A model generated the notes under the pieces. That model saw only the letters and a list, made by a program, of their open reading frames with translations, did no database searches and was not told the DNA's origin. Below, in pieces: positions 7,949 through 48,282 of a stretch of DNA of 64,000 nt. Every line of letters begins with the position of its first letter. Within the stretch, counting starts at the first letter, position 1. A program made the position numbers and the translations under genes. Source of the DNA: Verrucomicrobiota bacterium. GTDB lineage: Bacteria; Verrucomicrobiota; Verrucomicrobiia; Limisphaerales; J093. The DNA is taken from assembly GCA_022710935.1 (NCBI GenBank), contig JAKLFY010000001.1, forward strand, positions 1-64,000, in the 5' to 3' direction.

Positions 7949-8761
7949 ATGAAAGCAGTTCCTTTGACGGCCTACCCGCGGACGGCCCTGCGGCGGCATG
8001 GGGTGAAGAAACTCCGGACGGCGGCGCGCGTCCCGGCGGTTATCTACGGACGCAAGCGCGCCCCGCAGAACCTCGAGGTCAAACTCAAGGAGCTGAAGGA
8101 CCTGATCGCCGAGTCCTCGGCGACGAACGTCTTGCTCGATTTGGCGGTCGAGGGCGACGCCGAGCCGAAGCGGTTGGCGCTGCTGCAGGACGTGCAACAT
8201 CACCCGCTCTCAGGCGGGATTCTCCATGCGGACTTCCATGAGGTGTCCCCCGACGAGCAGGTGACAATCACCGTCCCGGTCGAGACCACCGGCGAGGCGA
8301 TCGGGGTGAAGAGCAGCGGCGGCGTGCTCGAACACGTTCTCTTCCAGCTCAAGGTCCGCGCGTTGCCCAAAGACCTCCCCGAGGTGCTCACTCTCGATGT
8401 GTCGCATCTCGACCTGGGCCAGGCGATTCACATCGGCGAAGTCCAGCCACCCCCCGGGGTCGAGATCCTTGGCAACAAGAATATCACCGTGATTGCCGTG
8501 TCGGCCCCGATCACCGAGGCCGAGGAAACGGCGGCCGCGGAAGCCGCCGAGGGCGCGCCGCTCGAACCCGAGGTTCTCACCCAGAAGAAGGAAGAGGGAG
8601 CCGAGGGGGCCGAGCCGGCGACCGGGAAAGGTGCCGACAAGAAGGCGCCGGAGAAGGGTTCCGAGAAAGCGGGTGAGAAGCCTGCCGACAAGAAGGCCGA
8701 AAAGCCTGCCGACAAGAAGGGCGAAAAGCCCGCTGACAAGAAGGCCGAGAAGAAGAAGTAG
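7949..8761 (+). CDS. rplY: 50S ribosomal protein bL25, CTC form with lysine-rich tail
   Basis: Binds 5S rRNA in the large subunit. The N-terminal L25 domain (VPAVIYGRKRAPQNLEV through LQDVQHHPLSGGILHADF) and the second beta domain (about 95-190) define the long CTC/TL5 form. After about residue 200 the protein becomes an acidic then lysine-rich low-complexity tail with the repeated unit EKPADKKAEKPADKKGEKPA, probably disordered and RNA-binding. It lies 34 bp after prs and is followed by pth. Confidence 0.95.
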   Translation: MKAVPLTAYPRTALRRHGVKKLRTAARVPAVIYGRKRAPQNLEVKLKELKDLIAESSATNVLLDLAVEGDAEPKRLALLQDVQHHPLSGGILHADFHEVSPDEQVTITVPVETTGEAIGVKSSGGVLEHVLFQLKVRALPKDLPEVLTLDVSHLDLGQAIHIGEVQPPPGVEILGNKNITVIAVSAPITEAEETAAAEAAEGAPLEPEVLTQKKEEGAEGAEPATGKGADKKAPEKGSEKAGEKPADKKAEKPADKKGEKPADKKAEKKK

Positions 8762-35700: not shown

Positions 35701-35991
35701 TCAGTTCAGAGATCCCGCCACAAAGGCGATCAGACCGACAACCATCAGACCGATCGCCACCCACCAGACCCAACCGCGTTGGCCCGACCGCCGTTGGTTC
35801 GGGCTGAACTCCCGCGCGACAAAGTCGTCATAGTCAAACTCCTGGTCCGGCAAATCCAAGGCGTCATAGGGCGCCTGATCCGACCATCCCGTCCGTTCGT
35901 CGGATCCACACTCAGGGCAGGCCGCCGCCCCCTCGGGAACCTCCGTCCCGCAACACGGACAGATGCCGGGTGTCGATCGATCGGGATTCAT
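35701..35991 (-). CDS. Zinc-ribbon membrane protein
   Basis: 96 residues. Cys11, Cys14, Cys25 and Cys28 (CPCC...CPEC, with an extra Cys13) form a zinc ribbon, followed by an acidic stretch and one C-terminal membrane helix (WVWWVAIGLMVVGLIAFVAG). The ribbon is predicted to face the cytoplasm. Function unknown. Its stop lies just upstream of the signal-peptide gene that follows in the same direction (14 bp). Confidence 0.75.
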   Translation of the reverse strand: MNPDRSTPGICPCCGTEVPEGAAACPECGSDERTGWSDQAPYDALDLPDQEFDYDDFVAREFSPNQRRSGQRGWVWWVAIGLMVVGLIAFVAGSLN

Positions 35992-36349
35992 GGATTCACA
36001 CTCGGAGCTTCATTCGTCGCGCCTGCGCGGCACAGCGGCCTGCCTTCCGTAATCGGCGATTCGATGGCGTCGGCGCAGGGCGTTCCTTCGCAGCACCCAA
36101 ATGCGCACTGCGCCGCAGCCCACCATCAACGCGCTCCTGGACCAACATGTCACCCTCAGGGTTGAATGTCCAGCGAGGCGCGCCTGAGACCAAATCCAGT
36201 CCTCGTTTTTTCTCTGCAAACGGTCGAGGAGGGCATCGAGAGCGCATCGGCGGGGCTGGCGGAACCAACGAAGGGCGAGGGGCTCGCGGAAGTTATTCAC
36301 AGTGTATTCAAAACATGTTCACTATCAACATTTTGCAGCGTTTTTTCCA
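35992..36349. other. Gene-free region before the structured RNA
   Basis: I see no convincing coding frame here; short open frames on both strands lack recognisable motifs. Base composition drops in GC from about 36290 onward, as expected for a promoter region. Confidence 0.5.
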
Positions 36350-36377
36350 TTGACAGAACTACAATGCGGTGTATGGT
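36350..36377 (+). promoter_or_regulatory. Sigma70-type promoter of the structured RNA
   Basis: A perfect TTGACA at 36350-36355 and TATGGT at 36372-36377 are separated by 16 bases. It is the best promoter match I found in the window and is not followed by a gene. Transcription would start near 36384. Confidence 0.7.
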
Positions 36378-36383
36378 GTGCTC

Positions 36384-37266
36384 AGTTCATTGAAAGAACA
36401 GGAAAGGGTTGCAGGGGCCTGAACGGTCCGGCAGTTCTTTCCGAAGATACTCCCAGGCGACTGGGGAAAGGTCGGGTCAGGCTGGTTGGCCCGGCCCCTG
36501 TGAGGAAGAGCGGATCGTGAGGTTTGCGCGTCTTGCAGGCAGGATTCACCAGTTCCTCTGGCGGCGTTCGCGCGCCGTCAGTGACGCGAGCAAGGAACTG
36601 AGCGACGAGGGGCGATGAGAAGCCGCTCCGAGTCGAGTCAAGTCAACTCGGGCTGGTTTCGGGCTCGAGCCAATCGCAGTCACCCAGAGGGTGCGTAGCT
36701 GCTACTGCGCGCCAGCACGCGGCGGACGGCTCTGGCGGTTGTACCAAATGAGGGCCGCCCGACGAAAGGCGCCGAAAGGCGAGACAAAGCGAGCGTCTGT
36801 TGCGGGGAGGCCACGGGGCGAGGCAGGTCCTGTGAAAACCTCCCAAAACGCCGGCGATGTTAAAAACGGCACCGCTGGCCGATGAGCGTAAGGCAGCTTG
36901 AGAGGTAAGAGGTCAGACCCGTGGCACCGGGCCAACGCACCGCCACACGCGGTGGCCGACCTGGTGCAAGCGGCAAAGACGCGAAGCAACGGTCATAGAC
37001 GTGTCTTTGCCCGGTTCGCAAGCCGGTGGTGCAAACACCAGCCCAGTCGAGCCGAGAGGCCTCACTCGATAATTCAGCGACCGCAAGGCGCTGGACGGCC
37101 CTGCTATGAGGCCGGGAACTCCGCTTGCCGCGGAGAATGGCGTCGGGAAGCTGGCAGCCCAATCGAGAGGCGCCTAATGCCAGCCCGGGGAAGAGAGCGT
37201 GGCGAACTCCCACTCCCAGATTTGTCCCTGTCTGGTCCCGCGATCAGGCAGGGACAATTTCTTTTC
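36384..37266 (+). ncRNA. Unassigned large structured RNA, about 880 nt
   Basis: Between a strong promoter and an intrinsic terminator, no frame encodes a plausible protein, while strong hairpins are frequent. Examples: GCAGGGGCC (36411-36419) with GGCCCCTGT (36493-36501) enclosing a GCGA-capped stem (36452-36465); CAGTTCCT (36550-36557) with AGGAACTG (36593-36600); GCAAAGAC (36973-36980) with GTCTTTGC (37003-37010); TGGTG/CACCA (37027-37040); CTCCGC/GCGGAG (37119-37135). Unpaired A-rich words such as GTGAAAACC and GTTAAAAACGG lie between them, as in ribozyme-like RNAs. I could not match it to tmRNA, SRP, 6S or intron cores. Short resemblances to RNase P RNA exist (GGAAAGGTCGGGTC near 36464, GGTAAGA near 36904, GGTGCAAGCGGCAAAGACG near 36964), but the 3' P4 strand was not found. 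Confidence 0.65.
37222..37266 (+). terminator. Rho-independent terminator of the structured RNA
   Basis: TTGTCCCTG (37222-37230) pairs perfectly with CAGGGACAA (37249-37257), followed by TTTCTTTTC. It lies directly before the end of the convergent fabF gene. Confidence 0.85.
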
Positions 37267-38526
37267 TCACCCCACGTATCCGCGGGCGACGAGGCAGGCA
37301 TTGTGGCCGCCGAAGCCGAAGGAGTTGTTGACAATGGCGTCGACCGTCGTTTCCCGCGCCGTGTGAGGCACAAGATCGAGGTCACAGGCCGGGTCGGGAT
37401 GATCGAGGTTGAGCGTGGGCGGCACAATGCCCGTCTGGATCGCCTTCGAGCAGACGGCCATTTCGACCGCCCCGGCCGCCCCGAGCATGTGGCCGGTGGC
37501 GCCTTTGGTGGAACTGACGGCCAACCGGCGGGCATGCGCGCCAAAGACGGCCTGGATGGCCTGGGCCTCGCAAATGTCGCCCTGGGGTGTGGCCGTGCCG
37601 TGGGCGTTGATGTAACTGATCTGCTCGGGCGCCATCCCCGCCGACCGCAGCGCCATCCGCATGCACCGGGCAGCCCCTTCGCCCTCGGGCGAGGGGACTG
37701 TCATGTGATGGGCATCGGCGGTGTTGCCGTAGCCCATCACCTCGCAGTAGATGCGCGCGCCGCGTCGACGCGCATGTTCGAGGTCCTCGAGCACCACTAC
37801 GCCCGCGCCTTCTCCCATCACGAAGCCGTCCCGATCCGTGTCGAACGGGCGCGAGGCGCGTTTGGGCTCCGCGTTGCGGGTGCTCATCGCCCGCATGGCG
37901 CAGAAACCGCCGATGCCCAGCGGCGTGATCGTGGCCTCGCTGCCCCCGGCGAACATCACATCGGCGTCCCCCATCTTGAGTGTGCGCCAGGCCTCGCCGA
38001 TGGCATGCGAGGAGGTCGCGCATGCGGAGCAGGTCGCCAGATTGGGGCCCCGCAGGCCGTGAAACATCGAGAAGAGGCCCGACGCCATGTTCAGGATCAG
38101 CATTGGGATCATGAAGGGCGACAGGCGGCCCGGCCCCTTGCTCAACAGAATCTTGTGCTGCTCCTCGGTGGTGTGCAGGCCGCCAATCCCCGAGCCGAGG
38201 AAGGCGCCGATGGCGTCGCGATTGCACCGATCCAGATCAAGCCCCGAGTCGACCAAGGCTTCCTTGGCCGCGACCAGGGCGAATTTCATGTAGCGATCTG
38301 TCCGCCGCTCGTCTTTGGCCGAGGGGAATGCCCCGGTGGCATTGAGATCGCGCACCTCGGCGGCAATCTGGCAGTCGAACGGTGTCGGGTCGAACAGCGC
38401 AATGCGGTCGATGCCGCACTGGCCGGCGAGGAGATTGGTCCAGAAGGTGTCCACCGAGTGGCCCAGACACGACACAACCCCCAGTCCGGTGATCACCACG
38501 CGTCGTTCGGTATGCGAGATCGCCAT
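37267..38526 (-). CDS. fabF: Beta-ketoacyl-ACP synthase II
   Basis: Elongates acyl-ACP with malonyl-ACP in fatty acid synthesis. 419 residues. N-terminal [15 protein letters not shown] is typical; the catalytic cysteine lies in [15 protein letters not shown] and the two histidines in [12 protein letters not shown] and [16 protein letters not shown]. It follows acpP by about 60 bp in the same direction, a standard fab arrangement; its 3' end meets the terminator of the structured RNA. Confidence 0.97.
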
Positions 38527-38587: not shown

Positions 38588-38833
38588 TTACTTCTGCTGC
38601 AGGTCTTCGATGTACTTGATCACATCGCCCACGCTCTGTAGCTTCTCGGCCTCTTCGTCGGGAATCTCCTGTCCGAACTCCTCTTCCAAAGCCATCACCA
38701 ACTCGACGGTGTCGAGTGAGTCGGCCCCGAGATCCTCGATGAACTTCGCCTCAGGGACAACTTGATCGACAGTGACACCCAACTGTTCGACGATAATCTC
38801 TTTAACCCTCTGCTCGATGGATTGTTCAGCCAT
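38588..38833 (-). CDS. acpP: Acyl carrier protein
   Basis: 81 residues from the ATG at 38833, preceded by GGAGAGA as Shine-Dalgarno. The phosphopantetheine attachment serine is Ser39 in [12 protein letters not shown], and the rest is acidic and helical as expected ([18 protein letters not shown]). It carries the growing acyl chain for FabF, encoded directly downstream. Confidence 0.98.
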
Positions 38834-38867
38834 GCGTCTCTCCAATTTCGTTTTCCGGTTGCGGTTG

Positions 38868-38896
38868 TGTCTATGCGACGTCCTCCGGAGCGTCAA
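38868..38896 (-). promoter_or_regulatory. Promoter for acpP-fabF
   Basis: On the minus strand TTGACG (38896-38891) and TAGACA (38873-38868) are separated by exactly 17 bases, placing the start about 28 bases before the acpP ATG. Confidence 0.55.
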
Positions 38897-48206: not shown

Positions 48207-48282
48207 TGGTACCCCCACCCTGAATTGAACAGGGATCAGCGGTTTAGGAAACCGTCGCTCTATCCATTTGAGCTATGGGGGC
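48207..48282 (-). tRNA. tRNA-Arg (anticodon CCU)
   Basis: Reading the minus strand, GCCCCCA at the 5' end pairs with TGGGGGT (first pair G-U), the D-stem is GCTC/GAGC, the anticodon loop TTCCTAA gives CCU, and the T-arm is CCCTG-TTCAATT-CAGGG. The CCA end is encoded. One mismatch lies at the base of the anticodon stem. It reads AGG arginine codons. Confidence 0.95.

Follow-up and report, generated by a model that had tools for sequence, protein, structure and literature searches.

A full-length match to MISL RNA in a Verrucomicrobiota genome, with its predicted ends, covarying pseudoknots and a boxA-like 5' element

The window analyzed here comprises 64,000 nucleotides of a Verrucomicrobiota bacterium of the order Limisphaerales (contig JAKLFY010000001.1, positions 1 to 64,000 of the forward strand). 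Between a divergently transcribed gene for a small zinc-ribbon protein and the convergent gene fabF lies a plus-strand stretch that opens with a sigma-70-like promoter and closes with an intrinsic terminator (Table 1). Elsewhere in the window, a tandem repeat of 12/24 bp (AAGCCTGCCGACAAGAAGGCCGAA) at 8678-8755 is probably a Lys/Ala/Pro-rich coding repeat, and the sole tRNA gene encodes a tRNA-Arg (anticodon CCT) on the minus strand at 48207-48282.

Table 1. Features of the MISL locus and its flanks, in window coordinates.
Feature	Position	Strand	Remarks
Gene for small zinc-ribbon protein with C-terminal hydrophobic stretch	35701-35991	-	PF13240, E = 5.8e-6; divergent from MISL
Sigma-70-like promoter	36350-36377	+	-35 TTGACA 36350-36355, 16-nt spacer, -10 TATGGT 36372-36377
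Conserved 5'-terminal element	36385-36399	+	GTTCATTGAAAGAAC; spans roughly nt 1-15 of the transcript; outside the Rfam model
5' hairpin P0	36401-36442	+	From MFE fold; between 5' element and start of Rfam model
MISL RNA core	36445-37210	+	RF03079 positions 1-751; cmscan
Candidate PK4	36568-36572 with 36585-36589	+	36568-36572 is a hairpin loop
PK2, 5' strand	36697-36702	+	AGCUGC here, GGUUGC in most relatives; partner strand 36893-36898
PK1, 5' strand	36880-36885	+	Pairs with hairpin loop 36993-36998
PK2, 3' strand	36893-36898	+	GCAGCU (GCAACC in most relatives); pairs with 36697-36702
PK1, 3' strand	36993-36998	+	Apical loop of hairpin 36972-37011
Candidate PK3	37102-37106 with 37138-37142	+	37102-37106 is a loop
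Intrinsic terminator, RNA 3' end	37222-37266	+	16-bp stem 37222-37257, then TTTCTTTTCT, T-rich
fabF, beta-ketoacyl-ACP synthase	37267-38526	-	PF00109/PF02801; convergent with MISL
acpP	38588-38896		PF00550; next after fabF

We compared the locus with all 4227 Rfam families using cmscan. The model of MISL RNA (RF03079) matched with 544.2 bits (E = 2.1e-164), against a curated gathering threshold of 274.6 bits, and was covered end to end without truncation (mean posterior 0.95), its conserved unpaired segments included. Given also the hallmarks of a stand-alone gene, namely a promoter and terminator of its own and neighbors that lie on the opposite strand and vary between lineages, the feature at 36350-37266 is almost certainly a MISL RNA gene. 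The locus is therefore a new occurrence of a catalogued RNA family and not the undescribed element that an earlier note on this DNA had taken it for; that note had itself proposed an Rfam scan, holding that a high-scoring known family would speak against novelty, and such a family is what the scan returned. MISL RNA is said to have been reported by Weinberg et al. in 2017 in NAR. Our literature search found nothing on its function, the only use that we came across being the chemical mapping of a MISL window, and we know of no protein partner, phenotype or biochemical function for it.

In both the full and a permissive scan (E <= 5, 36000-37700), the models for GOLLD, ROOL, OLE, HEARO, tmRNA, 6S and SRP gave no match at the locus, in line with the earlier judgment by eye that tmRNA, SRP and 6S do not fit. 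Besides MISL, the permissive scan returned only a c-di-GMP-I-GGC riboswitch at 36963-37037, a chance match at E = 2 and 15 bits. A strongly expanded RNase P RNA (rnpB), which the earlier note had left open after seeing a local similarity and which would be plausible at this size only with large insertions, is ruled out, as neither RF00010 nor RF00011 matched at E <= 5 in 36000-37700, RF00010 matches other contigs of the same genome with 198 and 193 bits (C242 and C152), and the MISL model is matched end to end. The two rnpB genes on those contigs (L002, L003) are only ~74% alike; estimated contamination of the assembly is 4.3%, and one of the two probably belongs to another organism in it. A 6S match is likewise found elsewhere in the genome, on contig C168, and we reject a role for MISL as a 6S replacement, since among 40 genomes, some with MISL and some lacking it, 36 have a 6S match.

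The Rfam model covers only part of the transcription unit, and we delimited the remainder with a set of 115 homologous loci from Verrucomicrobiota. Promoter-like sites numbered two in 2 kb, against 0.3 in shuffled sequence. Among the homologues, 78 that group with the order of the window keep the promoter spacing relative to a conserved element at the 5' end of the RNA (TTG at -35 to -33, TA at -13/-12 and T at -8). In the order, 8-13 nt separate the -10 element from the 5' element downstream of it, and the transcript should therefore start at or just before that element, here probably at about 36384-36385, some 6-7 nt after TATGGT. From 36385 to 37266 the sequence folds with -421.6 kcal/mol, compared with -379 +/- 8 for shuffles (z = -5.2). 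The arms of hairpin P0 are complementary and lineage-specific, forming stems of at least 5 bp in 89% of 108 homologues versus 47% when arms were swapped between sequences. At the other end, the terminator helix is 96% paired over ~112 homologues with 272 double-change cells, and because it covaries, the 3' end is fixed. Open reading frames inside MISL sequences show no excess over shuffled sequence (median 80 aa versus 83.5 aa), which rules out a coding RNA.

Because promoter, structure and terminator are all conserved in relatives, none of them is a chance occurrence. Much of the earlier note thus stands: it had described a free-standing structured-RNA gene with a promoter (TTGACA-16-TATGGT) that has no gene behind it, strong hairpins over ~830 bases and an end stem followed by a T run, and its coordinates, 36350-37266, were essentially correct. 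The covariation that it had suggested looking for among Verrucomicrobiota homologues is also present, as described below.

We then clustered the neighboring ORFs of the 115 loci. In much of the order, the genes preceding MISL encode a lipoprotein (divergent) and an M23-type peptidase, and those after it are cysK and rho; in family f66, some of whose genomes are complete, it sits between an HrpB-like helicase and TypA/BipA; these are presumptive names, from our reading of the sequences. No protein neighbor was universal among the 115 loci, neighbors being lineage-specific instead, and for this reason MISL most likely acts in trans. A role in cis, as a leader or a 3' regulatory element for fabF or the zinc-ribbon gene, would be in keeping with a position between two genes and with the short gap to fabF, but both neighbors lie on the opposite strand, the RNA ends in its own terminator and the neighbors differ between lineages, making such a role very improbable. 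With no fixed cis neighbor, coding capacity or detected mobile context, we infer a trans-acting chromosomal RNA of the housekeeping type. That MISL is an autonomous, non-coding, trans-acting RNA we hold with high confidence, and we are as confident of this nature and the MISL identity taken jointly.

Of the genomes sampled, 85 of 196 from the order and 28 of 388 across the phylum had a MISL score above the cut-off; its occurrence is patchy and it is nearly always single-copy. That more than half of the order's genomes lack MISL argues against an essential role. A single MISL is present in the genome studied here, which comprises 7.5 Mb in 259 contigs. Genomes of the same genus and family also have MISL, and in the nearest named relative, the MAG Verrucomicrobia bacterium ADurb.Bin006, its neighbor is a FabF with 96% identity. 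In G350 (loci L127 and L198) and G525 (loci L128 and L197), MISL occurs in two full-length copies, and in family f24 (L181-L186) MISL extends to ~940 nt, some 190 nt above the usual length. No MISL was found in 15 genomes of other phyla, a sample too small to exclude it there. Phage and plasmid records gave no match either, one viral contig with a matching 16-mer holding no MISL, and we rejected a phage or plasmid origin. MISL, which both cultured and uncultured members of the phylum carry, ranks among the larger orphan RNA families of bacteria.

Covariation was computed on an alignment of 114 sequences using an APC-corrected G statistic and, in the manner of R-scape, a null simulated on a tree. 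At E < 0.05, 25 pairs were significant, comprising 19 pairs of the Rfam structure, two of the terminator and four others, two of which belong to helices that we call PK1 and PK2. Helices were built by joining adjacent columns; covariance models cannot hold pseudoknots. PK1 is 95-96% paired, compared with 24-40% when its strands are slid against each other, with 107 double-change cells and one pair at E ~0, and PK2 is 95-99% paired, compared with 19-46% when slid, also with one pair at E ~0. In a second alignment of 50 sequences, which shares sequences and aligner with the first and so does not provide independent data, the two together were 97.2% paired (slid controls, 20-40%) and had 60 double-change cells versus 15.8 in shuffles, none of 500 shuffles being as good. 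PK1 and PK2 are thus long-range pseudoknots strongly supported by covariation. Two further helices are likely pseudoknots: PK3, with 35 double-change cells, is 100% paired in the 114 sequences, compared with 11-62% for slid strands, and falls below the tree-null threshold, and PK4, with 43 double-change cells, is 95% paired, compared with 18-47% for slid strands, and has no single significant pair. Together with the true ends of the RNA, at the 5' element and the terminator, these long-range pseudoknots specify a construct for probing, pull-down or cryo-EM.

The locus is thus a stand-alone gene for a non-coding RNA of ~880 nt that has a predicted start, bears the conserved 15-nt element at its 5' end, forms many hairpins linked by covarying pseudoknots and stops at the terminator at 37222-37266. 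In the picture that we favor, it would act in trans as a compact chromosomal RNA of the housekeeping type, either as an RNP scaffold or as an RNA-only particle in the manner of OLE, ROOL and GOLLD. We consider the chances of a scaffold or particle, rather than a ribozyme or regulator, to be evenly balanced. Nearly invariant, mostly unpaired segments, which include UGAGAGGUAAGAGG...AGACCCGU next to PK2 and others toward the 3' end, are what one would expect of an active or binding site, and UGAGAGGUAAGAGG and AGACCCGU are the best candidates for such a site. They favor, over an architectural RNA, a catalytic RNA or a trans regulator, the regulator acting, for instance, by protein sequestration, as has been proposed for OLE and ribosomal protein S21. 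Known ribozyme core models, however, gave no match at the locus in the full and permissive scans, and overall we think a catalytic or regulatory RNA rather unlikely.

The 5' element is conserved well beyond the window. The sequence GTTCNTTGANAGAAC was matched at 13 or more of 15 positions in 113 of the 115 homologues, and the 15-mer pattern GTTCHTTGANAGAAC has a single occurrence in the 7.5-Mb genome, at 36385. A shorter pattern, [AT]TCNTTGANA, is present in 108 of 115 homologues, about 58 nt upstream of the point at which the Rfam model begins (50-63 nt in most of them); the expectation is 0.004 occurrences per 160 nt. At two loci (L188, L193), a near-copy of the element, GTTCTTCGAAAGAGGAAC, directly precedes GTTCATTGAAAGAAC.

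The element resembles boxA, the site bound by NusB-NusE (S10), which has the gammaproteobacterial consensus GYTCTTTAANA and whose C4T/T6C double mutant in E. coli loses SuhB recruitment (PMC5725501). Scored against the consensus GYTCTTTRANA, 107 of the 115 MISL elements are boxA-like and 17 are canonical at position 5. Leaders of rRNA operons carry G(C/T)TCTTTGA(A/C)A in G000, G071, G022, G050, G098, G353, G314, G377, G525, G255 and G406, and their boxA reads, for example, GCTCTTTGACAA (G000), GCTCTTTGAAAG (G050, G098), GTTCTTTGAAAG (G353, G314) or GTTCTTTGAAAT (G377, G525, G406). The MISL element is similar to the rRNA-leader boxA of its own genome: the 12-mer GTTCTTTGAAAG is identical in the two in G353 and G314, and the remaining genomes show at least one difference. 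In families f64 and f75 the MISL element is GATCTTTGACAG. No boxA-like element was found in the upstream regions of rnpB and 6S in these genomes. What the MISL element shares with the boxA of rRNA leaders is G-T-T-C-x-T-T-G-A-x-A at the 5' end of the RNA. Against a boxA, position 5 is T in all rRNA boxA sequences seen here, whereas MISL has C there in f66 and A in the majority of the order; the MISL element also occupies the extreme 5' end of the RNA, can form a small hairpin and lacks the sequence that follows boxA in rRNA leaders. Moreover, three sequences (G063, G050, G019) change the core yet keep the hairpin arms. Weighing these likenesses and differences, we put the prospect that the element is a functional boxA at slightly below even.

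The chief alternative to a boxA is that the element is a short hairpin at the 5' terminus (GUUC-loop-GAAC). It would shield the RNA from 5'-end-dependent decay or seed its folding, MISL otherwise being the same trans-acting RNA. Pairing between the two arms is possible in 99 of 115 sequences and is present in the MFE fold, the element is located at the predicted transcript start, and the three sequences with an altered loop core retain the arms. The arms are, however, almost devoid of compensatory change, their variation mostly just breaking pairs; the core TCTTTGA is kept while the arms are partly broken in several deep lineages (f64, f74, f75, G218, G254); and other stable RNAs of these genomes do without the element. 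A plain hairpin is a real if somewhat doubtful prospect.

Were the element a boxA, it would recruit NusB-S10, and RNA polymerase would then complete a long untranslated RNA without Rho termination. Such boxA-guarded transcription of MISL is possible, and that MISL is made by a boxA-modified polymerase complex of the rRNA type (NusB-S10) is a tentative suggestion from the sequences. If it is correct, the rRNA antitermination machinery would, across Verrucomicrobiota, also serve an ornate non-ribosomal RNA family. The output of MISL would then be linked to the synthesis of rRNA, which hints that MISL has a part in ribosome biology or in the control of growth rate. A boxA at the 5' end would also account for the escape from Rho of an untranslated RNA as long as 880 nt, and it yields a concrete prediction for expression. 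In 26 loci (Limisphaerales-type, e.g. L150), rho itself follows MISL at a distance of ~1.3 kb, with cysK, if the locus has it, in between; this proximity is suggestive beside a boxA-like element and may be plain conserved synteny.

Among known RNAs, RNase P RNA (RF00010) and 6S RNA (RF00013) are, like MISL, stable stand-alone chromosomal RNAs, but their models have no match at the locus and both are encoded elsewhere in the genome. OLE, ROOL and GOLLD give no covariance-model match to the window's MISL, and ROOL and GOLLD occur in phages or prophages, whereas MISL lies among chromosomal housekeeping genes and matches no phage or plasmid. All three nevertheless resemble MISL as large bacterial non-coding RNAs (~600-900 nt) with extensive secondary structure and poorly understood function, ROOL explicitly having multiple pseudoknots, as MISL does, and all three form RNA homo-oligomers (PMC12286853). 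With MISL as catalogued in Rfam, the locus agrees in its full-length covariance-model match, its Verrucomicrobiota host, its stand-alone gene and the want of an assigned function. The Rfam model spans only 36445-37210; although parts of the structure may already be in the original MISL description, our analysis adds to that model the true boundaries of the gene, with the boxA-like 5' element, hairpin P0 and the terminator, and the pseudoknots PK1-PK4.
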